Virus record (IMG/VR): IMGVR_UViG_3300021962_007571
Span: 1-64,000 of that record
Strand: one strand, 5' to 3'
DNA length: 64,000 bases
From: a virus
Part shown: positions 12,997-64,000 of the stretch, piece after piece
How positions within the stretch are numbered: the first letter of the stretch is position 1
How the letters are laid out: the number at the start of each line of letters is the position of its first letter
Program-made: the position numbers and the translations under genes
Notes under the pieces: model-generated
What the model saw: the letters and a program-made list of their open reading frames with translations, nothing else
The model's database searches: none
Told to the model about the DNA's origin: nothing

Positions 12997-13812
12997 TTAA
13001 TATTTAATTTTTTTGCCTCCAGATGTAGAATATGTTTGAATAATGTTATCTGGGTCACCCTCAAAATGTTTCTTAATCGCTTCTACATTTCTAACATCAT
13101 CATCTGAAAAACCTATTGTTGGTAAAAAGAAATTCTTCACGTTATTTTTAAGGTACGCCTTTTTGTTTAACTCGTGAGAAAGTCCTTTAATATAGTTCAT
13201 AAACTCTTTTAACGCTTTTACTTTCTCCTCTTCAGGATTTGCTTCCGCACCTGTTCCAAACGATACAGGATAAAATCTACATAAATCAAGATATGTCTTA
13301 ATTAAGTCCATATCATTTAAATCCTCTTCATCTGCAAAATTTCTGAATTTTTTTAAATTTTTAACAAGTTCTTTTTTGTCTATTCCGTTGAAACCTGAAA
13401 TAATATAGTTATAAACTCCTTCTTTTAAAGTGTTTGGGTTGTGACCCCTCGCAGTTATTATCGAAAAAATCGAACCGTTATTAATTGCCTCCACAAAATC
13501 ATCCCAAGCGGGACCTGTTTTAGCTAACATAGCATCAACTAAAAATGATTTATCACCTTCAGTTCTAAAATTTCTAAATGGATTTTCCGCAAAACCCACA
13601 ATAGTTTTACCATCATACTCAAACTCTTCTTTACCAATTTGAGTTCTATATTGTGCAAAATCCTCAGTGGTCATCCCAACTTCATCACCGTTACTATCCT
13701 TTAACATAATTCTAGTCGGCATTGTTACGATGTTATCGTCCCAATCAAAAGCATAGTACTTTAAATCTGGTGTTCCTTCTTGAGTAAATCCTTCGTTTAT
13801 TATTCTTTTCAT
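12997..13812 (-). CDS. HAD-superfamily phosphatase with capsid-targeting-like N-terminus
   Basis: A 271-residue protein with the HAD catalytic signature. Motif I is DWDDN at residues 23-27 (nucleophile Asp23, acid/base Asp25), motif II is the SIITARGHN segment near residue 118, and an acidic motif GFSDDDVRNV near residue 233 would bind Mg2+. The substrate is unknown; phosphatases of nucleotides, polynucleotide 3' ends or sugars all fit. The first residues, MKRIINEGFTQEG, look like a T4 capsid-targeting sequence with an I-x-E/G cleavage site, so the enzyme may be packaged. It lies between the sheath and tube genes and is co-directional with them. All key HAD residues appear intact. Confidence 0.7.
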   Translation of the reverse strand: MKRIINEGFTQEGTPDLKYYAFDWDDNIVTMPTRIMLKDSNGDEVGMTTEDFAQYRTQIGKEEFEYDGKTIVGFAENPFRNFRTEGDKSFLVDAMLAKTGPAWDDFVEAINNGSIFSIITARGHNPNTLKEGVYNYIISGFNGIDKKELVKNLKKFRNFADEEDLNDMDLIKTYLDLCRFYPVSFGTGAEANPEEEKVKALKEFMNYIKGLSHELNKKAYLKNNVKNFFLPTIGFSDDDVRNVEAIKKHFEGDPDNIIQTYSTSGGKKIKY

Positions 13813-13863: not shown

Positions 13864-16800
13864 TTAGATATTGTCAAATGACGCACCTGTTGGTGTAATC
13901 AAGAACTCAATATCGATGAATTCTAATGCTTTAGTTGGTTTGATATAAATCTTACCTACTAATTGGTTTTTATCTAAATCTTCAGTTGAAGACGAAACTG
14001 TTACACGGAAATCGTATAAACCTCTGTCTCTTCTGATTGCATCTAAGATAGGGTTAACTGAATCTAAGAAGTCTTGTCTTACTTTCTCGTCATTTTGTTC
14101 AAATAACAATCTTACTGCTACTGCTGAAATTAATTTACGAGCTTGTAACAATAATCTTCTTACGTTGATTCTGTCAAGTGCAGATTCTCTAACTTGTAAA
14201 GTTTTGTTACCCCAAATTACAGTTCCCACATCTGAGAAGGTTGCAATTGGGTTAATTCTACCAACATAAAGAGTATCTCTATCTTCTTGAGTCAGTTTAC
14301 GTCTCGCTTTGATTGCGTTTACTAAACCTCTTGTGTAACCCGCTGATGCGAACCAAGGGAATGCGATATTATCTGTTAACGCTAAGTTTCTTGTCACTTC
14401 AGCAGTTGCTGGAATGTAAATCTGAGTGTTATTAACAGTATCACGAGTTAATACCCAAGGGTAGTAAGTTGCGGTGTAGTTAGAGTCAATACCTGTTTGT
14501 TCCAAGTTATCAACCGCTTCAGTTGGGTAGATGAAATCTTCTTGGTTTGTAGTTGTAGGTACAAACATATTAAAGTCAGGTGTTGTACAAACGTATAACG
14601 AGTCTGCTCTATCATTTTCAACCATATCAACCGCCGCTTCAATTAAGTTACTATTGTTAACATAATCAATACCTGGTGTTACAAACACGTTGATGTTTAC
14701 CGCCTCAGGGTTAGAGAATGTTTTTTGACCTAATAGATATGCGTAGTAGTCAGTGTTTGCCCAATCATTTGAATCATCACCTACAGTTATTCTTGAGAAT
14801 AAACCATTACCTGTTGCATTTGTGTATCTATCGTCAGCACAAGCTCCTGCCAAGTAACCTGATTGACCTAACACGAATCTGTCTCCGTTTGTTCTATATT
14901 CTCTATAGATATCCCAACCATCGAAACCTCCAGCCACAAATAATGTGTATTTTCTAGAGTATAGTCTATAGTATGGACTATCTGTATTTGTAGGTTCGCT
15001 ACTGAATGGTGCCGAACCAACCGCAAATGCAGTTTGACCTGAAGTCGTATATCCATCAGGAATTGTTACTACAGTTGCTCCTGAATCCATATGGAAACCT
15101 TTAGTTATATATGGCCAACTTTGTAAAGCTGGTGAACACATAGTACCTAAATTTTGTTTACCAACATATTGGAAGAAATCTAAGTCATATCCAATTGATG
15201 TAGATAAACCTAAATAAGTACGTCTAACGTTATCTCCTGAAGAAACTGCAGGGTCATCATTACCTGTTGAATATCCAAATGGCGGGTTATAAACCACCTC
15301 GCCAGGGAAATCATATTTAGTTTTGTAGATTGGGAATGGAGAAGTAACACCATCGTATAATCTAAAGTTATATCCTTCATAACCACAAGGTAGTGAATCT
15401 ACAGGTGCATCTTCATTAATCTCAACCATTATAAATTTAGAGTTTAACGCAAATTCACCATCTTGGGAACCAATCTTTTTAGCTACGAAATTGTTTTGAC
15501 CTGGGTCCATAGAACAGTTTGTAAACTTTTCAAGTACTACAGGTGCATCATCAGTATCGTAAAAATCACGAACAATAACATCGAATGTTGAATTGTTAAA
15601 TGAAATATTTGCTATTGATATTTTTAATTGGTCGTTAGCACTGTTACCGTCAGCAATTGATATAAATTTAAATAATTTATAAACTTGACTACCTCTTAAT
15701 TCAGAAACTAACCAAGGAGATTCAGGTGTTTGGTATTTTTCAACATAAAATGCGATGTTATCCAATTCCTCACTTCTTGCAGAATTTAATGCTACTAAAG
15801 ATTGTCTTAAACCTCTAATGTAACCTTTTTTATAAGCCCAATTTAATAAACTTGAGAATCTTTCTTCTAAAAATAATGGAACCTCTGTTCTTGGTTTAGA
15901 GAAGTTACCTAATCCAAATACTTTAGATACATAAGTTGAGTCTGAACTTTGTAATGAAGTTTTGAACACATATGTTTTTCCATCATCATTAGTTACATTA
16001 ACCGCAAATGGTGCAAAAGGATTTTTAGTAACCGCACTATAACTACCACTGAAATCTAAAGTAACCGCACTTAATTGACTAACTTCATAATCAGGTCCTT
16101 TTTGAGTTGAATTATAATTAGATAAACCTCTAGAACGTAAAGTTGCAACTACTAAATTGTTGTAGTTACTATAAGAAGTACCTGTGTAGTAATATAACTT
16201 ACCGTGTACAGTTCCTGAGAAACAATCTGGGATTGTTGTAGTTGTTGTACTTACAGGAATTGTTGTAGTAGTTGTGTTACAAGGATTTTGAGTTGTACTT
16301 GTTGTTGTTATTGGTGCTGAAGTTGTTGTAGTAGTTGTTGTTTTTGGTAACAATGTTAAATCTGTTACAACAGTCCAAAAAGAATAACCTGAATAACTGT
16401 TTCCTGAATAGTTATTAAATAACGCGTAATACCAAGGGTCATTGTATGAAGATGTATAATCTGTCTGTGCAGAATCTACACTTGGTACACCAAATACGTT
16501 GTTAGTGTTTGCCGAGAAAACAGGGTTTAAGATATCATAATCATAACTTGGAATTGTACCCCAATAATTGATTGAAGACGCACTTAAACTTGGTTGTGCA
16601 AATATACCTAATAATTGGTCTTTAATGTCTTGAGACAATGAAGATGTTCCTCCATCAAATTGAGTATATTCATTTGTTAATATATTTTGTATTTCTTCAG
16701 GGAAATTAGTTAAGAAAGTTATTGAACCATCTTGGTTTGAACAACCAGTAAATGTAACATCGAAACTAACAGTCTGTGCAGTACAATTAATATCACAAGT

Positions 16801-17208
16801 GTTTGCGGTATAGTTTGGAGTTCCGCTACAAATTTCATCAAAATGAACCGTAGTTGGGTCAACGTTGGCAATTGTTTGAATTGACCAAGATGGACCCGCA
16901 TCATATCCTGATAAACCTAATACTCTTGTTACAAACAATTGATTTGATTGTTGAAGGTATGATTTTGCAATATACGATGCCTCGTATTTTGGAATTTGTG
17001 TGTTTATAAATTTCTCAGGGTTAGTTCCCCCAAAATAAGCTTGGAACTCGTCATAGTTCGTAATAAAGATAGGTTCAAATGCAGGACCTCTTAAAGTCTC
17101 ACCTACAATACCTAAAGTTGTTACCCCAACACTCTGAGCTACAAAGCTTAAGTCTCTTTCAGAAGTGTACACACCTGGTGACACGAATACTTTACTGTTT
17201 GTTGCCAT
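13864..17208 (-). CDS. Tail sheath protein, T4 gp18-like, with mucin-like insertion
   Basis: A 1114-residue protein, much longer than T4 gp18 (659). The N-terminus (VFVSPGVYTSERDLSFVAQS) and the C-terminal core (YVGRINPIATFSDVGTVIWGN, then the RRLLLQARKLI helix and a closing DLDKNQLVGKIYI region) are typical of contractile sheaths. The sheath contracts around the tube to drive penetration. Extra mass comes from large central insertions likely to form surface domains. One contains a Thr-rich stretch at about residues 286-327 with runs of five to seven Thr separated by Cys-containing links. The gene has its own leader with a TATTTAT motif and a hairpin terminator. The Thr runs could be glycosylated, which is inference. 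Confidence 0.9.
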   Translation of the reverse strand: MATNSKVFVSPGVYTSERDLSFVAQSVGVTTLGIVGETLRGPAFEPIFITNYDEFQAYFGGTNPEKFINTQIPKYEASYIAKSYLQQSNQLFVTRVLGLSGYDAGPSWSIQTIANVDPTTVHFDEICSGTPNYTANTCDINCTAQTVSFDVTFTGCSNQDGSITFLTNFPEEIQNILTNEYTQFDGGTSSLSQDIKDQLLGIFAQPSLSASSINYWGTIPSYDYDILNPVFSANTNNVFGVPSVDSAQTDYTSSYNDPWYYALFNNYSGNSYSGYSFWTVVTDLTLLPKTTTTTTTSAPITTTSTTQNPCNTTTTTIPVSTTTTTIPDCFSGTVHGKLYYYTGTSYSNYNNLVVATLRSRGLSNYNSTQKGPDYEVSQLSAVTLDFSGSYSAVTKNPFAPFAVNVTNDDGKTYVFKTSLQSSDSTYVSKVFGLGNFSKPRTEVPLFLEERFSSLLNWAYKKGYIRGLRQSLVALNSARSEELDNIAFYVEKYQTPESPWLVSELRGSQVYKLFKFISIADGNSANDQLKISIANISFNNSTFDVIVRDFYDTDDAPVVLEKFTNCSMDPGQNNFVAKKIGSQDGEFALNSKFIMVEINEDAPVDSLPCGYEGYNFRLYDGVTSPFPIYKTKYDFPGEVVYNPPFGYSTGNDDPAVSSGDNVRRTYLGLSTSIGYDLDFFQYVGKQNLGTMCSPALQSWPYITKGFHMDSGATVVTIPDGYTTSGQTAFAVGSAPFSSEPTNTDSPYYRLYSRKYTLFVAGGFDGWDIYREYRTNGDRFVLGQSGYLAGACADDRYTNATGNGLFSRITVGDDSNDWANTDYYAYLLGQKTFSNPEAVNINVFVTPGIDYVNNSNLIEAAVDMVENDRADSLYVCTTPDFNMFVPTTTNQEDFIYPTEAVDNLEQTGIDSNYTATYYPWVLTRDTVNNTQIYIPATAEVTRNLALTDNIAFPWFASAGYTRGLVNAIKARRKLTQEDRDTLYVGRINPIATFSDVGTVIWGNKTLQVRESALDRINVRRLLLQARKLISAVAVRLLFEQNDEKVRQDFLDSVNPILDAIRRDRGLYDFRVTVSSSTEDLDKNQLVGKIYIKPTKALEFIDIEFLITPTGASFDNI

Positions 17209-17499: not shown

Positions 17500-18536
17500 A
17501 CTAAGGTAGCTTCAAACGTTATTGTTGATGTTTGATTTGTAAATTCTTTTTCAATTTCAAACTTAACAACATCATTTCCGTTTACTTGTATTTTAGTAGG
17601 ATTCCTACCATAGTATTCATTATCAATATAAACATCATAGTTTTTGACATTATTAGTTTTAATTAATGTTAAATCAACAGTATCGTAAAATCTTTGTACA
17701 ACTAATGAGTTCTCATCAACAAATTCTATAACCACAGGATAATTTTTTGGGTTCTCTAAAGCTGGTCTTTTTTTCTTTTTGTTACCACCTTCTTGAACTT
17801 CGTATATTTGGAATACCCTTTCAACACCAGGTTTAACTTCAAACTCATCTTCATCTATTAAAAATCCTAACATTGTAAAATCATAACTTTGGATATAATA
17901 TTTTCTTTTTTCAATATCCATTACAGATTCATCTGAAACATTATCCATAATAATTGGAATGTAATGACCTTTAATATTTGTGTAGGCTTGTCTTGAAGAA
18001 AATTTTTGTAATATAGTTTTATTTAACGAGTTCAATTCTCTCATTCTATTACAAATTATTTTTACAGAATACTTTATATCAACAGGAACAGGTTGAGGTA
18101 TTTTATATACGTCAACATTTATTCTATCTCCGTCAAAACTAGGAACTGACGCATAATAATATTGTCTTCTATTTGGTATTGTATAAAGTAGGGATGGATT
18201 AGAACCGTATTTTATTTCGGGGGCTCTAATAACACTAATGAATGGTGGGGATACGTTTTTATCTAAATCTTGGAAATTCCAAGTTTGAGTAAACTGAGCC
18301 CAATTTTGTGTTGTGATTATAATATCAATATTAGGAATAACTTTTCCTTCAGAAACTACTCTTAAATCGTTTTTAACAAAATCTAAAAATCCTCTATCTA
18401 AATCGGCGTGCAAAATAGACTTAGGTAAAAATGTACCGTTTTCATTTATCTTATCTAACAACTCAACTCTTCTTGGATATAAAGTTCTGTGAGGTGTTAA
18501 ACTAATATCTTTTTTTATTTTTTTAGGAAATCCCAT
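17496..18536 (-). CDS. Tail completion/sheath stabiliser-like protein (gp15-like)
   Basis: A 346-residue protein in the neck block, directly after the gp14-like and zinc-ribbon genes and before the sheath gene, which is the position of T4 gp15. The central part (about residues 75-245) has the feel of gp15: a strand VDIKYSVKIICNRMRELNSLN, then a helix, then YIPIIMDNVSDESVMDIEKR and YIQSYDFTMLGFLI. Gp15 caps the tail tube and locks the sheath to the neck. Residues after about 250 form an extra beta-rich domain (NYPVVIEFVDENSLVVQRFY) not found in T4. It overlaps the upstream gene by one base. Similarity is weak, and the context carries most of the call. Confidence 0.45.
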   Translation of the reverse strand: MGFPKKIKKDISLTPHRTLYPRRVELLDKINENGTFLPKSILHADLDRGFLDFVKNDLRVVSEGKVIPNIDIIITTQNWAQFTQTWNFQDLDKNVSPPFISVIRAPEIKYGSNPSLLYTIPNRRQYYYASVPSFDGDRINVDVYKIPQPVPVDIKYSVKIICNRMRELNSLNKTILQKFSSRQAYTNIKGHYIPIIMDNVSDESVMDIEKRKYYIQSYDFTMLGFLIDEDEFEVKPGVERVFQIYEVQEGGNKKKKRPALENPKNYPVVIEFVDENSLVVQRFYDTVDLTLIKTNNVKNYDVYIDNEYYGRNPTKIQVNGNDVVKFEIEKEFTNQTSTITFEATLV

Positions 18537-19081
18537 TACTTTCTTATTTCATTAATTACAAATAATTTATTTTTTTTGTTTATCATATCAACTTCTTTTG
18601 CAGTGTATACTGGCTTCTCATTTGATTTATAAACAAAACTATCGTATTTGTAAGGATTGTATGTGACTACATTATCGTTAGCCTCTTCAGGAATATTTTC
18701 ACAAGGGTATTGACAATAATCAACCAAAGTACCAATAACAAATGCGTGAACATTCTTACTTTTTTCACTTCTAACTTTATCTTTACCACCTTGTCTAACT
18801 CTAAACTCAACATCTGTTAATTTAACATAATCGGCGTGAAGAATAACTTTTGACTTATATGTGACTGAAAACGTATGTTTGTGTAAATTATAGTAAACCA
18901 TAACTCTTAATCCTTTAAAGTCCTCTTCAGAATTATTGTGACCACATTTATGACAAATATATGGGTCGTCCCCTCCTTCAGATAAATCCCAAGACCAACC
19001 ACACTCGTCACAAATTACTTCATTATTTGTGACAGTTTCCATTATTAAATTTTTTTGTCTTTCGCTAATTATTATTTTCAT
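18536..19081 (-). CDS. Zinc-ribbon virion-associated protein with capsid-targeting-like N-terminus
   Basis: A 181-residue protein. Residues 24-46 hold a zinc ribbon with two CxxC knuckles, CDECGW and CHKCGH. Residues 58-120 contain a compact domain with VMVYYNLHKHTFSV, KVILHADYVKL and the motif KNVHAFVIG, a pattern I associate with small conserved phage proteins of unknown function. The N-terminus MKIIISERQKNLIMETV resembles other short amphipathic termini in this genome that carry I-x-E sites. It lies between gp14-like and gp15-like genes with one-base overlaps, so it is co-translated with neck proteins. Function is not known; a packaged nucleic-acid-binding protein would fit. Confidence 0.55.
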   Translation of the reverse strand: MKIIISERQKNLIMETVTNNEVICDECGWSWDLSEGGDDPYICHKCGHNNSEEDFKGLRVMVYYNLHKHTFSVTYKSKVILHADYVKLTDVEFRVRQGGKDKVRSEKSKNVHAFVIGTLVDYCQYPCENIPEEANDNVVTYNPYKYDSFVYKSNEKPVYTAKEVDMINKKNKLFVINEIRK

Positions 19082-19643: not shown

Positions 19644-21425
19644 TTGGAAAATAACAACCGAGAAATAAGTCAATTATTAGAACAAAAGGCACTCAATATT
19701 CTTGAGTCGTATTCTGGTGCAAACAATTATCTACTTAGATTAAAAAGACAACAAGAATTAAATAAAAAATTCTACCCAACAAGGGCTCAGTCAGAATACA
19801 TTGTTAATTTTCATAATGTTGTTCCAAAGATTGCAAAAAAATGGGTTGACTTAGACCCATACTTTGCTAAAAAAATTGCCGACGAAAAACTATACACTAA
19901 AATACCTGAACAAGTTTGGATTGAAAAGTTATTAGTTGAGAAAGATAAGTCCTACCATATTTGGGGTAAAATATTTGAGAATGAGGATTTACACGAATTT
20001 TGGTTACCAAAGGGTGCCGTAATTAAAACCCACAAGGTTGAGAAAGTTGAAATAGACTACTCCAAGTACGGTCACAGACCTCCACTACAACATCAAAAAG
20101 AAGCAATAGAAAAATTAGTAGGGTGTAAAAAGTTTATTTTGGCGGATGATATGGGGTTAGGTAAAACTACCTCAACAATTATTGCCGCATTAGAAACAGG
20201 TGCTAAGAAAATTTTAATTGTTTGTCCAGCATCTTTAAAAATAAATTGGATGAGGGAAATTCAAAATTATACAGATAGAAGTGTTTTTATATGTGATGGT
20301 AAAAACTATTCAACTGAACACGATTTTGTTATTGTAAATTATGATATCCTTAAAAATTTTCACAATAACGATAAAAAAGAAAGACACACTTCATTAATAT
20401 TACAATCAAACTTTGAATTAGTAATTTTAGATGAAGCTCACGCAGTTAGTAACTCTCAAGCACAAAGAACAAAATTAGTTAATGATTTTGCTAAAACAAT
20501 TGACAAAATTTGGTTGTTATCAGGAACACCTATGACTTCAAGACCAATGAATTATTATAATTTATTAAATCTAATTGATAGTCCTGTTGCCCAAAATTGG
20601 ATGGCTTACGCAATTAGATATTGTGAAGGGTATCAATTTAAAGTTGGTAATAGAAAAATTTGGAAAACAACAGGTGCGTCTAACCTTGAAGAACTTAGGG
20701 ATAGGACTTCAATGCAATTTTTAAGAAGATTAAAAGAAGATGTTTTAGATTTACCTGATAAAATTATTACACCTGTATATCTAAGATTACGTTCAAGACT
20801 GTATGAAGAATTGATGGGTGAGTATTATGATTGGTACGATAAAAAAGAAGAAGAGTCATCATCATTAACTTTACAGTTTTCAAAGTTAATGAAAGTACGT
20901 CAAATTATTGCTGAAGAAAAACTACAATCAACATTTGAATTAGCCGAAAACATTTTAGAACAAGGTAAGAAAGTTATTATTTTTACAAACTTTACAGACA
21001 CTTTAAAAAAGATTGTTGAGAAATTTGGTAAAGAGTGCGTGTATCTTGATGGTAGTTGTTCTCCCGCTCAGAGACAATATGCGGTAGACCAATTTCAAGA
21101 AAATGATAAAATAAGAATATTTGTTGGAAACCTAAAAGCTGCGGGAGTCGGATTAACCTTAACCGCGGCTGAGGCGGTTATTATGAATGACTTATCATTT
21201 GTACCTGCAGAACACAGTCAGGCTGAGGATAGAGCTTATAGATATGGTCAAAAATCAAATGTTTCAGTGTTTTATCCAATATTTGAAAACACTATTGAAG
21301 GAGCAATCTATGATATTCTCTCAAAGAAAAAACAGATTATCAGTGTTGTTATGGGGGATAATGTGAACTCAGACCCTGCGGATGTTGTAGAGGAAATTCT
21401 TAAGATGATACAAAACAGTAGATAA
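19644..21425 (+). CDS. SNF2-family DNA helicase/translocase
   Basis: A 593-residue SNF2-type ATPase. Domain 1 has Walker A in DDMGLGKT (about residues 169-176), motif Ia VCPASLKINW, the DEAH box (about residue 263) and motif III LLSGTPM. Domain 2 has a YLDGSCSPAQRQ segment, GVGLTLTAA and motif VI QAEDRAYRYGQ with the conserved RxxRxGQ. Such enzymes remodel forks or displace protein from DNA; relatives include T4 UvsW and SMARCAL1-like annealing helicases. Translation must begin at TTG (19644): an in-frame stop lies three codons upstream, and the nearby ATG is in another frame with a quick stop. The N-terminal 120 residues are phage-specific. Confidence 0.85.
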   Translation: MENNNREISQLLEQKALNILESYSGANNYLLRLKRQQELNKKFYPTRAQSEYIVNFHNVVPKIAKKWVDLDPYFAKKIADEKLYTKIPEQVWIEKLLVEKDKSYHIWGKIFENEDLHEFWLPKGAVIKTHKVEKVEIDYSKYGHRPPLQHQKEAIEKLVGCKKFILADDMGLGKTTSTIIAALETGAKKILIVCPASLKINWMREIQNYTDRSVFICDGKNYSTEHDFVIVNYDILKNFHNNDKKERHTSLILQSNFELVILDEAHAVSNSQAQRTKLVNDFAKTIDKIWLLSGTPMTSRPMNYYNLLNLIDSPVAQNWMAYAIRYCEGYQFKVGNRKIWKTTGASNLEELRDRTSMQFLRRLKEDVLDLPDKIITPVYLRLRSRLYEELMGEYYDWYDKKEEESSSLTLQFSKLMKVRQIIAEEKLQSTFELAENILEQGKKVIIFTNFTDTLKKIVEKFGKECVYLDGSCSPAQRQYAVDQFQENDKIRIFVGNLKAAGVGLTLTAAEAVIMNDLSFVPAEHSQAEDRAYRYGQKSNVSVFYPIFENTIEGAIYDILSKKKQIISVVMGDNVNSDPADVVEEILKMIQNSR

Positions 21426-21439
21426 TTTTACAATTCTTG

Positions 21440-21448
21440 TTATTTATT
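21440..21448 (+). promoter_or_regulatory. TATTTAT motif upstream of the SOD-fusion gene
   Basis: TTATTTATT on the plus strand, 22 bases before the ATG at 21471, in the 45-base gap after the helicase gene. Candidate late promoter element. Confidence 0.35.
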
Positions 21449-21470: not shown

Positions 21471-23138
21471 ATGAAAAATCTGGTAAATAAGATTGAAACG
21501 TTAGAAGAGGAAGTTCAGAAAAATGAAAAGGACTTCGCAAAAAAATTCTTCATTAACGAAATGAAAAAAATAGGAATAGAAAGACTACCCTACTCATATA
21601 GTTCCCTTAAAAGATTTATTGACCCTGAAACTATGGATGTTCACTATAACAAACATTATAAAGGGTATGTCGAAAAATTAAATTTAGCCTTAGATAAGAA
21701 AAAATTTGGTGATTTAGATTTAGAACAAATTGTTAAAACTATTAGTAGATTTAATAAAACTGTTAGAGATAATGCGGGTGGTGCTTACAATCACGCTTTA
21801 TTTTGGAAAATGTTGTCACCAAAAACTCAAAAACCAAAAGGTATGATTTTAAAACGTGTTGAAAAAGAATACGGTACCTTTGGTAATTTTAAAAAGAAGT
21901 TTGAGGAAATTGCTAAAGAAAGATTTGGTTCTGGTTGGGTTTGGTTAGTAGTAACAAAAACTAATAATCTAAAAATAATGTCCACCCCAAATCAAGACAA
22001 TCCTTTGATGAACGATGTTAAAAATGGTGGATATCCAATATTAGGATTAGATTTATGGGAACACGCATATTATCTAAAATATCGTAATAAAAGAGACGAA
22101 TACATTAAAAACTTTTGGGATGCGGTTAATTGGGATTTTGTAGAAAAATTATACAAAATGAAAATTGAAACAAGAATTGATGAGGATATTGTGATGCAAC
22201 AACTTATGAACGCTTCCAATAAAGACATCATCACAGAACAAGAAGCTAAGTCTCAAAGTTGTTCTCACGGTGAAGAAATAAAATTTAAACAATTACTATT
22301 TCCCTCTTCAGATTTAAAACAAAAAACAACCCTCTATTCAAGATTCAAACAAGACTATGTTAGAGGATGGATGGATATACTTAAAAAATCGTATCCTGAA
22401 AATTGGAAAGAAAAAAATTCTTTATTTGTTGGTCACGAATCAGGTTTATACAATAAAGAAAACGTTAGGTCGTTACTAATGAACTTAACTTCATCTTATT
22501 CGGCATTCTGTATTATTCATAAGGATGTTAATCAATATTTAGTCCAAAATAATCAATCACCAATAGAATACACAAACGACCCAAAACACAATTTGTCTGA
22601 ATTAAGAAGATTTTTCTCAGTTTTAGATGGTATTCGTTCGATTATTTTTAATAGAGAAAATCAATCAAATACTTTAAAACAAATTGGAGGAGTTCTTAAA
22701 AAAACAGATTGTCTTGGTAAAAGAAATGAGGACGCCGCTTGTAAAATAATTAATCAAAATTTAGGTGATGGTTCTTGTAAGATAGAATCAGGTGCGGGAC
22801 ATTCAAATGATATGTTATCAGGTATTGACGCAACATTAAAATTAGAAGGTAATAATTTAACCGCTCAAATAAAACCTTACAAAACAATTGTGGTTTCTGA
22901 TAATTTTGTAGCAATACAAGGGTCCTCAAGTACTCAAGAATATAAAAAGGTTGATACTATCATTTTTGTTAATGTAAAATCACTATCTGTTAAAATATTC
23001 AAAACTAATAATATTAAAATTGAAAAGGGTAACTTTTTAATTCCAAAAGAAAATGAAATTATGTCTATTGTTGGAACAGGAGATATTGAACTAATTGATT
23101 GTAACAAATATTTATCAGAAAACGCAATATGGGAATAA
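21471..23138 (+). CDS. Mn-type superoxide dismutase fused to a nuclease-like C-terminal domain
   Basis: A 555-residue fusion. Residues about 38-225 form a full Fe/Mn superoxide dismutase. Metal ligands are all present: His in MDVHYNKHY, His in YNHALFW, Asp and His in LDLWEHAYYL. Gly-Gly before the second ligand and Gln in STPNQDNPLM are the Mn-type signature. Residues about 230-555 are unrelated to SODs. A segment near residues 420-470 reads GKRNEDAACKII then GIDATLKLEG and TAQIKPYK, matching the G-D-x(n)-Q-x-K pattern of Mrr-like PD-(D/E)xK nucleases. SODs convert superoxide to peroxide and oxygen. The stop overlaps the start of the gp13-like neck gene by 10 bases, so co-translation with a virion protein is likely. 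The nuclease reading is tentative. Confidence 0.75.
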   Translation: MKNLVNKIETLEEEVQKNEKDFAKKFFINEMKKIGIERLPYSYSSLKRFIDPETMDVHYNKHYKGYVEKLNLALDKKKFGDLDLEQIVKTISRFNKTVRDNAGGAYNHALFWKMLSPKTQKPKGMILKRVEKEYGTFGNFKKKFEEIAKERFGSGWVWLVVTKTNNLKIMSTPNQDNPLMNDVKNGGYPILGLDLWEHAYYLKYRNKRDEYIKNFWDAVNWDFVEKLYKMKIETRIDEDIVMQQLMNASNKDIITEQEAKSQSCSHGEEIKFKQLLFPSSDLKQKTTLYSRFKQDYVRGWMDILKKSYPENWKEKNSLFVGHESGLYNKENVRSLLMNLTSSYSAFCIIHKDVNQYLVQNNQSPIEYTNDPKHNLSELRRFFSVLDGIRSIIFNRENQSNTLKQIGGVLKKTDCLGKRNEDAACKIINQNLGDGSCKIESGAGHSNDMLSGIDATLKLEGNNLTAQIKPYKTIVVSDNFVAIQGSSSTQEYKKVDTIIFVNVKSLSVKIFKTNNIKIEKGNFLIPKENEIMSIVGTGDIELIDCNKYLSENAIWE

Positions 23139-24241
23139 TATCAGAACCACACAGGTCAAAATTATACACAAGAGTTAAACATCTTTTAGGTGCACCGATA
23201 AGAAGTGTCGAATTAGAAGATGAAATGTTAGACTCGTTATTAGAATTAGCAATTGGAGATTATTCACAATATATCCAAGATTGGTTAATTGAATCTCAAT
23301 GGTCGGCATTACAAAATTTAAATTTAGATGAACAATCTTTAGCCAGAGCTTTTGTAACTAGAAGTTTAGACTATGAAACACGTTATAGTTACGCATATTC
23401 TAAAATTGTTGGACTACAGGCTGGTGGTGATTGGGTGTTGAAAAAAGATTTTATTGAACTTAAAAAAGGTCAACAATTGTATGAAATACCTAAAGGTAGA
23501 GAAATCAATGAATTACTTTGGTTTACACCTGCTGAGTTAACAAATATTTTATTTGACCCTTGGTCTTTTGGGGCTATGGGTGGACCTGGACTTGGAGGTC
23601 CTGGCGGATACTCTCAATTAGGTTATAGTGGTTCTTATTTCTTAATGCCTGCGTTTGATATGTTGTTAAGAATGCAAGAAATTAACATACAGAGAAGAAT
23701 TATTTCTTCAGAATTAACATATAGAATCACCGCGTTACCTGATGGTAAAAAAATGGTTCATTTAATGAACACACCAGGAGGTAAATTTGATTTTGGTAAT
23801 TCAAATTTTTACAGTGGTAAAGTTTGGTATTGGTATTATGATGTTGATGGCCCAGATAGAGATAAGTGTTTGGCAGAAAATCCTGATATTATCAAACTAC
23901 CTTCAGATGTTCCTTTTGATGAAATAGCTTGGATTGATTTAAATAACCCCGCCCAACAATGGGTTAGAAGATGGTTTATCGCTCTTTGTAAAGAAACGTT
24001 AGGAAGAGTTAGAGGGAAGTATAGTGGTAACTTAAAAACACCTGATAGTGAATTAACTATGGATTATCAAAGTTTATTAACTGAAGGTAAAGATGAAAAA
24101 TCTAAGTTAGAAGAAGAACTTAAACTAAGGTTAGAGAGAATGAGACCTGAAAAAATGATGGAGAAAGAAGCTTTAACCGCAGAAAATTTAAATAAGGCAA
24201 TGAAATTTAGAGCAATGCCAAGACAAATATACGTAATTTAA
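23129..24241 (+). CDS. Neck protein, T4 gp13-like
   Basis: A 370-residue protein with the hallmark C-terminal region of gp13 neck proteins: WVRRWFIALCKETLGRVRGK, then a DSELTMDYQSLLTEGKDE loop and a charged helix with KLEEELKLRLERM. The N-terminus (HRSKLYTRVKHLLGAPIRSV, then DEMLDSLLELAIGDYSQYI) matches the helical start of this family. A Gly-rich loop near residues 150-170 (GAMGGPGLGGPGGYSQLGYS) is an insertion. Gp13 and gp14 complete the head and accept the tail. It overlaps the SOD-fusion gene by 10 bases. It is encoded on the opposite strand from the gp14-like gene, an unusual split. Confidence 0.72.
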   Translation: MGIISEPHRSKLYTRVKHLLGAPIRSVELEDEMLDSLLELAIGDYSQYIQDWLIESQWSALQNLNLDEQSLARAFVTRSLDYETRYSYAYSKIVGLQAGGDWVLKKDFIELKKGQQLYEIPKGREINELLWFTPAELTNILFDPWSFGAMGGPGLGGPGGYSQLGYSGSYFLMPAFDMLLRMQEINIQRRIISSELTYRITALPDGKKMVHLMNTPGGKFDFGNSNFYSGKVWYWYYDVDGPDRDKCLAENPDIIKLPSDVPFDEIAWIDLNNPAQQWVRRWFIALCKETLGRVRGKYSGNLKTPDSELTMDYQSLLTEGKDEKSKLEEELKLRLERMRPEKMMEKEALTAENLNKAMKFRAMPRQIYVI

Positions 24242-39395: not shown

Positions 39396-40253
39396 ATGGT
39401 AGAAACTAATAAAGAGTATTTTTTCAGTCCTTACTATTTTTTCATATCTGAAAAACACGATAAAATATCGTTATACTATTCTATTGCCGAAACTTTAACC
39501 GAATCAAGAAAAAATGACGATAAGTTAGATTTTGATAAAAAAGATTTGGATAAAGTAAAAAAAGGTGTGTCTAATATATTAAAAGACAAAAAAATCAAAA
39601 CTAAAAGTAACATTAAAAAATATTTTGATAAACTTAACAAGGGTAAAGAAGAAATCGAAGAATTGGTTGATTCTGACGGAACTCTTGTAAGTTCAAGAAT
39701 ACCCCCTCTTAATATGGGATTGGCACCTAAGAAGACTACCGACCAAACAGTAGTTATGGGTAGAATGACAAATAACCCCGTAACTAGAGGTTATAGAAAA
39801 TACTATGGTGAATCTGAAGAATCAGAAGATAATGTAGTTAATGAAGTTGATTACTCAGAAGCTTTTGGTTACGAAGAAACTAAAGATATGGATGGAGAAG
39901 AAACGTTCAAATATTTAGTTAAAAAAATGGGTATGGAACCTGATGAAGCTAAAGACAGAACTAAACAATTTGGAAAAGACCCATCAGGTAAAAGGACAAA
40001 AAACGCACCTAAACAAATTAGAAACAAAAAAGGATTTATCGATAGAATGACTTTATCTGAAATTGAAAGACAAAAGATGATGGACATTTTAGATGAAATT
40101 ATTTTGAATAAAAAAAGTGGTGATGGTGAGTTGGGAGAGAAAGACAGTAAAGTTTCCAAGATAATTAAAAAAAATATCGAGTCTTTAAAAAAGATGGCAG
40201 ATAAAGAAGGTCTTACCATAAATCAAATAATTAAAATGTTAAAAAGTGAATAA
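39396..40253 (+). CDS. Charged helical protein, unknown (possible head-associated)
   Basis: A 285-residue protein rich in Lys, Glu and Asp. The N-terminal 20 residues are aromatic (EYFFSPYYFFISEK), followed by a helix YYSIAETLTESRKNDDKL that includes an I-x-E. The middle has a low-complexity acidic part (GESEESEDNVVNEVDYSEAF). The C-terminal half is helical and ends LTINQIIKMLKSE. This composition is like scaffolding or internal head proteins rather than enzymes. It opens a plus-strand operon of five small proteins with tight or overlapping starts. No family was recognised. Confidence 0.5.
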   Translation: MVETNKEYFFSPYYFFISEKHDKISLYYSIAETLTESRKNDDKLDFDKKDLDKVKKGVSNILKDKKIKTKSNIKKYFDKLNKGKEEIEELVDSDGTLVSSRIPPLNMGLAPKKTTDQTVVMGRMTNNPVTRGYRKYYGESEESEDNVVNEVDYSEAFGYEETKDMDGEETFKYLVKKMGMEPDEAKDRTKQFGKDPSGKRTKNAPKQIRNKKGFIDRMTLSEIERQKMMDILDEIILNKKSGDGELGEKDSKVSKIIKKNIESLKKMADKEGLTINQIIKMLKSE

Positions 40254-40673: not shown

Positions 40674-40964
40674 ATGGCACAACAAGAACCAATAGATTTA
40701 GCACAAACAGAAAACAATACTCTATCTGCAGTTGCTGAACAAGAAAGAAAAAAATTATTCCCAAGAAACGACTACAACACATCGAATAAATACTCTTCAG
40801 TTAATCCTGACGCATTAGCAACAGGTGACGAATTGGGTAAAGGTACTGGTGGTGATTTAGACGTTTATAATACTATCGCAGGTAGTAGTGTGGATAATAT
40901 TGAAAGAAAAAATGAAATAAAAATCAACAAATTTAACGCAAGTAAAACATATCCTGATTTTTAA
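40674..40964 (+). CDS. Small soluble protein, unknown
   Basis: A 96-residue protein, hydrophilic and Asn/Asp-rich, with an N-terminal helix (NNTLSAVAEQERKKLFPRND) and a flexible rest. No motif was recognised. It starts two bases after the previous stop and overlaps the next start by one base (TAATG), so it belongs to the small-protein operon. Confidence 0.5.
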   Translation: MAQQEPIDLAQTENNTLSAVAEQERKKLFPRNDYNTSNKYSSVNPDALATGDELGKGTGGDLDVYNTIAGSSVDNIERKNEIKINKFNASKTYPDF

Positions 40965-41371
40965 TGAAATTAATTAACACCATAAAAACAATAATATCTG
41001 AAGCGGCTACTATCGAAGATATTACAGATTCTATCAAAAATAGAAAAATCTGTATTATATACTATGATGGTGATGAACCTGGTGGTAGAGGGTTGCGTCA
41101 GATTGAACCTGTTTGTCTTGGTGTTAGTAAAGCGGGAAATAAAGTTTTAAGAGCTTGGGATGACGAAGGTTCTTCACATACCGCGTATAAAGGAGAACAA
41201 CCATTACCTGGTTGGAGATTATTCCGACTTGATAAAATTTTATCTTTAAAACCTACAGGAGAAATTTACAATCAGCCAAGACCTGGTTATAATTTTACAG
41301 GAGATAAAACAATGGCAAGTGTTATTATCAACGCAAAATTTAATAATCCACCAGAACAAAACGTAGCATAA
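40964..41371 (+). CDS. WYL-like domain protein with capsid-targeting-like N-terminus
   Basis: A 135-residue protein. The N-terminus MKLINTIKTIISEAATIED closely resembles T4 internal-protein targeting sequences, with IISE followed by Ala as a prohead-protease-like site. Residues about 28-110 look like a WYL domain: RKICIIYYDGDE, then LRQIEPVCLGVSKAGNKVLR and WRLFRLDKILSLKPTGE, followed by PRPGYNFTGDK. WYL domains bind nucleic acids or other ligands and regulate defence and repair systems. There is no DNA-binding HTH domain here. A packaged, injected regulator is a plausible inference, but the WYL call is from pattern only. Confidence 0.5.
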   Translation: MKLINTIKTIISEAATIEDITDSIKNRKICIIYYDGDEPGGRGLRQIEPVCLGVSKAGNKVLRAWDDEGSSHTAYKGEQPLPGWRLFRLDKILSLKPTGEIYNQPRPGYNFTGDKTMASVIINAKFNNPPEQNVA

Positions 41372-59598: not shown

Positions 59599-60564
59599 TT
59601 ACTTATTCTTAATCACTTCAGTTATAACATCTTTTAAGAGTCTTGAGAAAGACTCTTTTTTTGTTTTATAACTAACCATTTTAGGTTTATTACCCGTACC
59701 TGATTTGTTATGTGTTTTTTCTACCCTTCTTTTTTGCTGACAAGCTGATTTTTTTTGAGAGTCACTCATTTTACCCGCAACTCCCGCGGCTCTACATTTT
59801 GGGTATCCTTTACTTGATGCGTCAGGTCTGCCACAGGGAGGATGTTTACCATCTTTATCTTTTCTACATATATTAACCCAAGGACCTTTAGGTTGTTTAC
59901 TACCTTTTGGTTTTTTCTTAGTACCAAACCAAACCCCTAAATCTTCAACAACTGTATTTTCGGTAATTTCAACCCACTCACTTACAGTATGTACATCGTG
60001 AACATCTCGTTCATAACTTCCGTTAGAATCTTTTTCCCAAACACCAATAACTGTTTTAATATTATTTTTCAATGTTTTCTGCTTACTTTTTTTATTTATT
60101 TTATGTTTTGAATGTTCTTTAAATGGACCCAATTCACTATCAGACCATTTTTTTAAACCTATTTCAATTGGGGCTGAGTAAGGTCCCGAAGTTACTGTAG
60201 AACTAATTTCGTTAATTTTTTTGTTTCTACCAGGTGTCGGATTAATAATATCTCCATCATCGTCATTTTGAATAGGATGATTTTTAGAATAATTAGAACT
60301 CTGTTTAGCTTTCTTTTCAATCTTTTTTATAACCTTTTTAGGTTCGTCCATAGTCCCATCATAACTATCCACCGCCAATAAAGGACTAAAATATTTTGAA
60401 ACGGGCTCATTAAAAGGGTTTAATTGACTTTTATCAAATATTTTTTTACCTAATCGTAATGGTGCAATATATGAACCCCTTCCCGCAGAATCTGAGGTAG
60501 CCTCATTTATTGGTTTTTTAAAGTACCAATTTCTAACATCTTCTTCAAGTCTATCTCTATACAT
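59599..60564 (-). CDS. Repeat-containing virion protein with Cys-rich basic C-terminal domain
   Basis: A 321-residue protein. The N-terminal half has two copies of a motif: residues about 25-55 with GSYIAPLRLGKKIFDKSQLN and residues about 128-155 with GPYSAPIEIGLKKWSDSELG, each ending PF-x-E. The C-terminal part (residues about 222-285) is Cys-rich and basic, with PWVNICRKDKDGKHPPCGR, then YPKCRAAGVAGKMSDSQKKS and CQQKRR, like a conserved phage domain (DUF5872-type pattern). The last residues SFSRLLKDVITEVIKNK form an amphipathic helix like the termini of other proteins here. A DNA-binding or head role is possible. Confidence 0.55.
   Translation of the reverse strand: MYRDRLEEDVRNWYFKKPINEATSDSAGRGSYIAPLRLGKKIFDKSQLNPFNEPVSKYFSPLLAVDSYDGTMDEPKKVIKKIEKKAKQSSNYSKNHPIQNDDDGDIINPTPGRNKKINEISSTVTSGPYSAPIEIGLKKWSDSELGPFKEHSKHKINKKSKQKTLKNNIKTVIGVWEKDSNGSYERDVHDVHTVSEWVEITENTVVEDLGVWFGTKKKPKGSKQPKGPWVNICRKDKDGKHPPCGRPDASSKGYPKCRAAGVAGKMSDSQKKSACQQKRRVEKTHNKSGTGNKPKMVSYKTKKESFSRLLKDVITEVIKNK
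59636..59662 (+). terminator. Rho-independent terminator inside the converging gene
   Basis: AAGAGTC pairs with GACTCTT around an 8-base loop, followed by a run of T. It lies 38 bases after the plus-strand stop at 59598 and within the 3' end of the minus-strand gene, so it serves two purposes as coding sequence and terminator. Confidence 0.7.
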
Positions 60565-63073: not shown

Positions 63074-63186
63074 GTGATTGAGGGAAACGATTTAGATACA
63101 AATAAATCAATCATAGTTGTTGAGTCGAAAGAAGCTCAATTAGGACGGAGAAGGAACGATTTAGATACAACCCTCCGTCTTTTTTT
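63074..63186 (+). ncRNA. Putative small RNA of about 113 bases with a duplicated 16-base motif
   Basis: The segment is bounded by a strong host-like promoter and a terminator: GACGGAG (63144-63150) pairs with CTCCGTC (63173-63179), followed by seven T. A 16-base sequence AACGATTTAGATACAA occurs twice, at 63086-63101 and 63155-63170; the second copy forms most of the terminator loop. Between them a 6-bp hairpin (TTGAGT with GCTCAA, loop CGAAAGAA) spans 63120-63139. Both copies would be single-stranded, as expected for a base-pairing regulator or a protein-binding site. A 62-codon GTG frame across it has no RBS and runs through the terminator, so an RNA is preferred. The T tract overlaps the stop of the converging gene. 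Confidence 0.6.
63155..63170 (+). repeat. Second copy of the 16-base direct repeat
   Basis: AACGATTTAGATACAA, identical to 63086-63101, placed in the loop of the small RNA terminator. Confidence 0.85.
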
Positions 63187-63598
63187 ATACCCAAATAACT
63201 ATTTGGTCTTCACCAACTCTAAAAGGGTTTTCGTAGGATTCTCGGAATACTGTAACAATTAATAATTTCCACCCAACACCACCTTCATTAATGGCTTTGA
63301 TTGCAATCGCGATTTCTTTTTCAGGAGATTTAATTACAAAATAATCATTATTTTTAATGTCACCTATAGCGATTAATTCGGCAATTTTTTTACGACCAAG
63401 TTCAATAATATATTTAATTTCGGCGTTAGATATTTCTTTAGTATTATAATCTTCTATATCAGTTCTAGTTCTTCTATCATATGCGTGCGGACTTCTATCA
63501 AGTTCAAATGAATAGGTTACCTCAATCTTAGTGATTAAGCTACCTATCTTCTTCTCTAACAATAACTGTTCTCTGATTATTTGACGTAGTCTATTCAT
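63185..63598 (-). CDS. Small phage protein with targeting-like N-terminus, unknown
   Basis: A 137-residue protein. The N-terminus MNRLRQIIREQLLLEKKIGS is an amphipathic helix with an I-x-E, like other termini in this genome. The rest has an H-x-Y-x-R-R motif (SPHAYDRRTRTDIEDYN), a helix YIIELGRKKIAELIAIGD, then YFVIKSPEKEIAIAIKAINE and GWKLLIVTVFRESYENPF. This order (His and Arg pair, helix, three strands with an ending T-V) resembles small RNase-toxin-like folds and proteins seen in large phages, but I cannot name the family. It lies next to the capsid gene, separated by a terminator. Confidence 0.5.
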   Translation of the reverse strand: MNRLRQIIREQLLLEKKIGSLITKIEVTYSFELDRSPHAYDRRTRTDIEDYNTKEISNAEIKYIIELGRKKIAELIAIGDIKNNDYFVIKSPEKEIAIAIKAINEGGVGWKLLIVTVFRESYENPFRVGEDQIVIWV

Positions 63599-63671: not shown

Positions 63672-64000
63672 TTATCTTAACTCGTTTAAGTCAAATGTTC
63701 TAACTCCATCAACTTGGATACGTCCGTAGAAACGGTTGTTAACCATTTTCTTAGCGTAACGTGTCATAATACCTTTGATAGGTGTAAAGTTGAATGGATT
63801 GTACATTGTAGGAGTTAATTGTAGAGGTACGTATGGAGCGTAGATGTAACCAGTGTCTAACAATGACGTTCCTTTGTGTCCCATTAACACAGTGTTTGGT
63901 GGGAAGTAAGGGTCACGGTAAACTTGGTATCTACCTGCTAATGTACCAACTCTTTCAATACCCATATTGTATTGGTCTTGCTCAGGAGCCGCGTTAGATA
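63672..64000 (-). CDS. Major capsid protein, T4 gp23-like, C-terminal part
   Basis: The frame is open to the right edge, so only the last 109 or so residues are here and the real start lies outside. The visible sequence has the gp23 C-terminal signature: VGTLAGRYQVYRDPYFPPNT, then VLMGHKGTSLLDTGYIYAPY, VPLQLTPTM and FTPIKGIMTRYAKKM. Gp23 forms the hexamers of the head shell after cleavage by the prohead protease. A strong terminator follows. Its presence fixes the T4-like identity of this genome and the link between the small targeting-type proteins and head assembly. Confidence 0.88.
   Translation of the reverse strand, partial: SNAAPEQDQYNMGIERVGTLAGRYQVYRDPYFPPNTVLMGHKGTSLLDTGYIYAPYVPLQLTPTMYNPFNFTPIKGIMTRYAKKMVNNRFYGRIQVDGVRTFDLNELR

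Follow-up and report, generated by a model that had tools for sequence, protein, structure and literature searches.

In bacteriophage T4, the prohead protease gp21 cleaves after the motif L/I-X-E, and the short capsid-targeting propeptides of the internal proteins are removed at such sites (PMC9026906). Foreign nucleases can also be packaged in T4 heads by means of a targeting peptide (PMC3012670, PMC9026906). A precedent for a virion-packaged superoxide dismutase (SOD) comes from chloroviruses, in which the Cu/Zn SOD A245R of PBCV-1 is a late, packaged protein presumed to reduce superoxide levels in the infected cell (PMC7019647). Here the analysis was directed at a gene joining a SOD to a nuclease-like module in the IMG/VR virus record IMGVR_UViG_3300021962_007571 (83.5 kb), of which positions 1 to 64,000 were analyzed as one stretch of 64,000 nucleotides, hereafter the window. 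No description of a SOD-nuclease fusion in a phage, or of its processing, was found in the literature searched, subscription papers lying outside its scope, in agreement with the first-pass annotation, which knew of none. A paper on the Far-T4 phages likewise gave no match to the terms sought. The family is present in databases as superoxide dismutase. For example, A0A6J5L953 (‘superoxide dismutase’, uncultured Caudovirales phage, 501 aa) belongs to the same family by the fold of its C-terminal module (E 3.3e-18), and the database description shown names the SOD only, leaving the second domain and the cut sites unmentioned.

The protein resembles T4 IPI, IPII, IPIII and Alt (PMC9026906, PMC3012670) in having a short N-terminal peptide, an L/I-X-E end to that peptide and a gp21-type protease, a likeness that rests on layout and not on sequence similarity. 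Each of the T4 proteins carries one effector, whereas the putative SOD-nuclease precursor combines two predicted enzyme domains and has further sites in between, and its packaging and ejection are proposed here from the genes alone. With PBCV-1 A245R it shares being a viral SOD, but A245R belongs to another SOD family and to a eukaryotic virus and has not been described as a cleaved precursor.

Gene neighborhood and upstream element

The gene and its immediate surroundings comprise the following features:

19644..21425, + strand: SNF2-type DNA helicase gene (PF00176, 2.2e-30; PHROG 62, 4.3e-110), the syntenic upstream neighbor
21441..21447, + strand: TATTTAT, a late-promoter-like element 24-30 nt ahead of the start codon
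21471..23138, + strand: gene for the proposed SOD-nuclease polyprotein (555 aa, ATG start, intact ORF)
23129..24241, + strand: neck or head-tail adaptor gene (PHROG 211 ‘head-tail adaptor Ad2’, 2.8e-11), a conserved neighbor

The gene order sheath ... helicase, SOD-nuclease, neck, small ORF, polB was found in almost all of about 60 non-redundant loci. The overlap with a gp13-like neck gene reported in the first-pass annotation was borne out, the two genes sharing 10 bp and the downstream one matching PHROG 211. The polyprotein and neck genes are adjacent in most relatives, with an intervening gene in a few (L026, L052, L119, L148, L149), and since other genes can intervene, the overlap alone is weak evidence for a link to the virion. 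The claim once based on it, that the protein is made with virion proteins, finds its support instead in the [LIV]xE motifs, in the genes for protease and capsid, and in the upstream element common to structural genes, all described below. In L026, L148 and L149 the intervening gene belongs to a different family of ~380 aa with an MK start and an ExQ-type N-terminus. The tail sheath protein of the same record (13864-17208, - strand) is very long (1114 aa) and has threonine-rich repeats within a large insertion.

TATTTAT lies in the 60 nt preceding the polyprotein gene in 60 of 62 relatives (reverse complement, 3/62), and within the same distance upstream of 24 of the 73 genes of the source record (reverse complement, 11/73), for example those at 13864-17208, 39396-40253 and 67441-68169. 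In this record it also stands ahead of the genes for prohead protease, scaffold, sheath and tube. The element is read as a candidate phage late promoter. The classical T4 late promoter TATAAATA showed no enrichment in the window, with 18 occurrences seen versus 17 expected.

SOD domain and nuclease-like module

Three regions of the protein could be delimited by family, fold and conservation:

21579..22148, + strand: Fe/Mn superoxide dismutase domain, residues 37-226 (PF00081/PF02777, PDB match, invariant ligands)
22263..22667, + strand: conserved helical region, residues 265-399 (invariant G325, Y327, R333-S334, C347, N354 and F393)
22668..23072, + strand: predicted PD-(D/E)xK-like nuclease core, residues 400-534 (E420, D453 and Q466-x-K468; model and fold matches)

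Both SOD families scored above threshold in Pfam, with Sod_Fe_N (PF00081) covering residues 37-116 (4.2e-21, 75.7 bits) and Sod_Fe_C (PF02777) residues 122-226 (3.2e-39, 133.5 bits), and the best match in a PDB sequence search was a bacterial SOD (E 1.8e-59, residues 38-228). The metal ligands H62, H108, D194 and H198 were invariant in 34 non-redundant homologues, confirming the earlier description of a complete SOD with all four ligands. Mn-type chains gave the top scores in the PDB and the sequence contains the Mn-type pattern NAGGxxNH...NQDNP, so that a manganese enzyme is a possibility, with the reservation that sequence cannot fix metal use with certainty. Compared with Fe/Mn superoxide dismutases at large, the phage protein has the full domain with its four ligands but carries phage-specific extensions at both ends, the cellular matches found being to the SOD part only. 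Free-standing SOD genes of two other jumbo phages, Pseudomonas phage MIJ3 and Vibrio phage 2.275.O, lie among non-structural genes, so that a link to the virion may be special to the SOD-nuclease family.

The C-terminal ~325 residues matched no Pfam or PHROG family, which agrees with the initial view of some 330 residues unrelated to SOD. Searches of this part against Pfam, PHROGs and PDB sequences returned nothing consistent, and no curated nuclease family in Pfam or PHROGs was matched consistently among 34 members. The G-I-D...Q-I-K pattern, on which the likeness to Mrr-type nucleases had been founded, proved to be real. E420, G443, D447, D453, Q466, K468 and Y491 were unchanged in 34/34 non-redundant homologues, and since D453, Q466, K468 and the upstream E420 are invariant in all of them, a chance match was ruled out. 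In an AlphaFold model of residues 229-555 (mean pLDDT 82), a long helix carries E420, D453 falls just ahead of one strand and Q466-x-K468 is in the next strand, a predicted placement that is the usual PD-(D/E)xK layout. A fold search with this model, the check proposed for the C-terminus at the outset, gave I-Ssp6803I as the best PDB fold match (E 3.6e-3, prob 0.99); Hjc (E 0.33, prob 0.57) was also returned, as were a number of phage PD-(D/E)xK proteins. Neither of the two outcomes that the first-pass annotation had set against a nuclease was obtained, since the predicted fold has nuclease relatives and Asp and Q-x-K are kept in the homologues. Support for a PD-(D/E)xK nuclease-like module is good, if not overwhelming, the fold matches being of moderate strength. 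The module shares with nucleases of the Hjc / Mrr / I-Ssp6803I type the glutamate on the first helix, the aspartate and Q-x-K on consecutive strands and the predicted fold; it differs from them in matching no curated family and in its extra conserved helical region, which includes an invariant cysteine and has C264 just ahead of it.

[LIV]xE motifs at the domain joints

The segments flanking the SOD, together with the capsid gene at the end of the window, are as follows:

21471..21560, + strand: phage-specific N-terminal helical peptide, residues 1-30, ending I28-N29-E30 ([LIV]xE here in 54/55 homologues)
22176..22184, + strand: linker site 1, I236-D237-E238 (consensus K-[LI]-N-E-S), proposed prohead protease cut
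22230..22238, + strand: linker site 2, I254-T255-E256 (consensus [LI]-[TS]-E-[GSA]), proposed prohead protease cut
63672..64000, - strand: C-terminal part of a gp23-type major capsid gene (PF07068, 1.4e-63), running on to 65504 of the record

Cellular SODs lack residues 1-30, their matches mostly starting near residue 36, and by analogy with the T4 internal proteins this segment is proposed to be a capsid-targeting propeptide. [LIV]xE stood directly ahead of the SOD in 54 of 55 non-redundant homologues (strict [LI]xE, 51/55), and two or more [LIV]xE sites were found in the SOD-nuclease linker of 52/55; composition shuffles within each segment (300 rounds) gave a mean of 12.8 (max 22) and a mean of 15.0 (max 23), respectively, a comparison that overstates significance because the homologues share kinship and a motif as short as [LI]xE holds little information. 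At linker site 1, E238 is invariant and [LIV]xE occurs in 55/55 with a free middle residue, and linker site 2 is present in 50/55. The motif is often followed by S, G, A or M. The linker is predicted to be disordered in the AlphaFold model (pLDDT <50, residues 235-261). Orthologues that have no SOD keep linker site 2 as V/I-L-S-E-S directly ahead of the module, and also retain an N-terminal helix-like peptide.

A protease of the required type is encoded on the record outside the window (S77 prohead protease, 67441-68169 of the record; PF03420, 1.5e-24), and a search of 19 further records, many being fragments, found such a gene in 11. The capsid propeptide ends in LINE, followed by A, and LINE is invariant in 13/13 related records, the source record included. 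Taken at the level of sequence, the [LIV]xE motifs at the domain joints correspond to the cleavage motif of the T4 prohead protease (gp21) and are proposed as cut sites. The SOD-nuclease protein is probably a precursor that is cut apart and not a lasting fusion enzyme; the picture of one fusion enzyme given in the first-pass annotation had missed this and probably does not describe the final product. It may also be that the uncut protein is packaged and acts whole.

That the product is instead an unpackaged, cytoplasmic two-domain enzyme made late from an auxiliary gene, its SOD protecting the lytic cell and its nuclease degrading DNA, is considered unlikely. The free-standing SODs of MIJ3 and 2.275.O do look like plain auxiliary enzymes, but a cytoplasmic enzyme would leave unexplained the [LIV]xE at every domain joint, the phage-specific N-terminal peptide with the same end motif, and the position and promoter-like element common to head and tail genes. 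Somewhat less probable still is a packaged protein whose C-terminal module serves as a head-completion or DNA-end-processing factor by the neck, and is not ejected, the SOD then being a passenger that may be absent. T4 has nuclease-type head-completion factors, and such a role would suit the near-constant place of the gene ahead of the neck gene and the persistence of the module where the SOD is missing. However, related modules occur in other proteins and at other loci of the same phages (L018, L042, L052, L119), the module stands alone in a 735-kb phage and looks like a mobile effector module, and cuts in the linker would free it from any tethering peptide. Equally doubtful is the view that common descent has preserved the [L/I]xE tripeptides as helix- or linker-forming sequence and that they are no protease sites at all. 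The motif is short, the homologues share ancestry, and the model gives low-confidence helix for residues 1-32 and for part of the linker; against this, the glutamate is constant and L/I/V fills the position two residues ahead of it in 50-55 of 55 homologues, depending on the site, while the middle residue varies freely with an entropy of 2.4-3.1 bits, and the motif, often followed by serine, alanine or glycine, recurs in unrelated neighbors and in the capsid propeptide.

Proposed packaging, cleavage and ejection

The preferred reading, to which a probability of roughly 0.6 is given, is that of a T4-type internal head polyprotein that is packaged, cut into a SOD and a nuclease-like protein, and ejected with the DNA. 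The N-terminal peptide of ~30 residues would target the precursor to the prohead core, where the prohead protease would cut after [L/I]-x-E at residue 30, just ahead of the SOD, and once or twice in the linker, at residues 238 and 256. The products inside the head would be a free manganese/iron SOD and a free PD-(D/E)xK nuclease-like protein, and both would exit with the DNA at infection, the SOD to clear superoxide around the incoming genome or in a stressed host and the nuclease-like protein to act on host or competitor DNA. We infer late expression, packaging, cleavage and ejection, as well as both activities and their targets, from the gene and its surroundings. The role raised in the first-pass annotation, detoxification of superoxide made by a host defence, is likewise conjectural. 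A difficulty for this reading is that a Mg-dependent nuclease packed together with the genome would have to be held in check, conceivably by its specificity, by inactivity in the head or by DNA modification.

What is new here is the conserved [L/I/V]-x-E at domain joints and, as proposed, a polyprotein version of the T4-type internal head proteins. If this reading is true, it would describe a phage packing an antioxidant enzyme and would carry the concept of T4 internal proteins beyond single proteins to a polyprotein that is cut apart. The combination of [L/I]xE at domain joints with an S77 protease in the genome would then offer a sequence rule for injected effectors in uncultured phages, and one could test whether phages are confronted with superoxide when they enter the cell, as seems to be the case for chloroviruses.

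Distribution and evolution

Relatives of the whole protein were found in 228 IMG/VR stretches and relatives of the C-terminal module in at least 582; the uncultured T4-like phages that carry the SOD-nuclease protein form a widespread group. An artefact or chimera of a single contig was ruled out by the 228 relatives and the synteny. In a collection of cellular genomes, matches were to the SOD part only (roughly residues 36-228), in a scan that used SOD-derived patterns and that a lone cellular nuclease module would escape; a bacterial origin of the whole fusion was rejected on these SOD-only matches.

About six non-redundant SOD-less orthologues occupy the same locus. In a tree of the module, the main SOD-less group was nested inside the fusions, the branches holding it there having moderate support (84-86/78-86), and this nesting suggests that the SOD was lost. 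Late gain of a SOD by a pre-existing module was set aside, as the tree places the SOD-less group within the fusions. In the contigs L097 (5308-6941) and L098, two overlapping frames encode the SOD part and the nuclease part separately, either through a frameshift or as a natural gene split. The 735-kb phage LR756501 (L232, 3743-4615) carries a free-standing, distant copy of the C-terminal module of 290 aa.

Related genes of similar build

An L5-gp82-like gene (18536-19081, - strand; Phage_L5_gp82, PF25735) lies near the helicase gene and its product has the N-terminus MKIIISERQ...LIME. Relatives of this gene are joined to a related nuclease-like module in L018 (2124-3629), L042 and L157, and in L007 (2248-3621) an HExxH-containing domain precedes the L5-gp82-like part. 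[LI]xE is often found at the domain joints of these relatives, and L5-gp82-like neighbors have short N-termini of the form MKxxxTExQ...LxE. Extra genes in the interval between the polyprotein and neck genes of L052 (7514-8605) and L119 (6808-7890) encode another divergent Q-x-K module, the L052 protein having a tag-like N-terminus that ends in LINE. The [LI]xE joints of the L5-gp82-like relatives, together with the module genes of L052 and L119, suggest a set of head-loaded effectors that would be cut apart.

A broader and more tentative proposal, held to be somewhat less probable than its converse, is one of modular delivery, in which virion polyproteins would combine swappable enzyme domains (SOD, nuclease-like modules, HExxH metallopeptidase-like and L5-gp82-like domains) through prohead-protease joints, one targeting peptide would load several effectors, and these would be freed for injection at maturation. 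Very short N-termini ending in [LI]xE were also seen in the proteins encoded at 12997-13812 (MKRIINE-G), 40964-41371 (...IISE-A), 59599-60564 (...PINE-A) and 63185-63598 (...LLLE-K), which are candidates for further head-loaded proteins.
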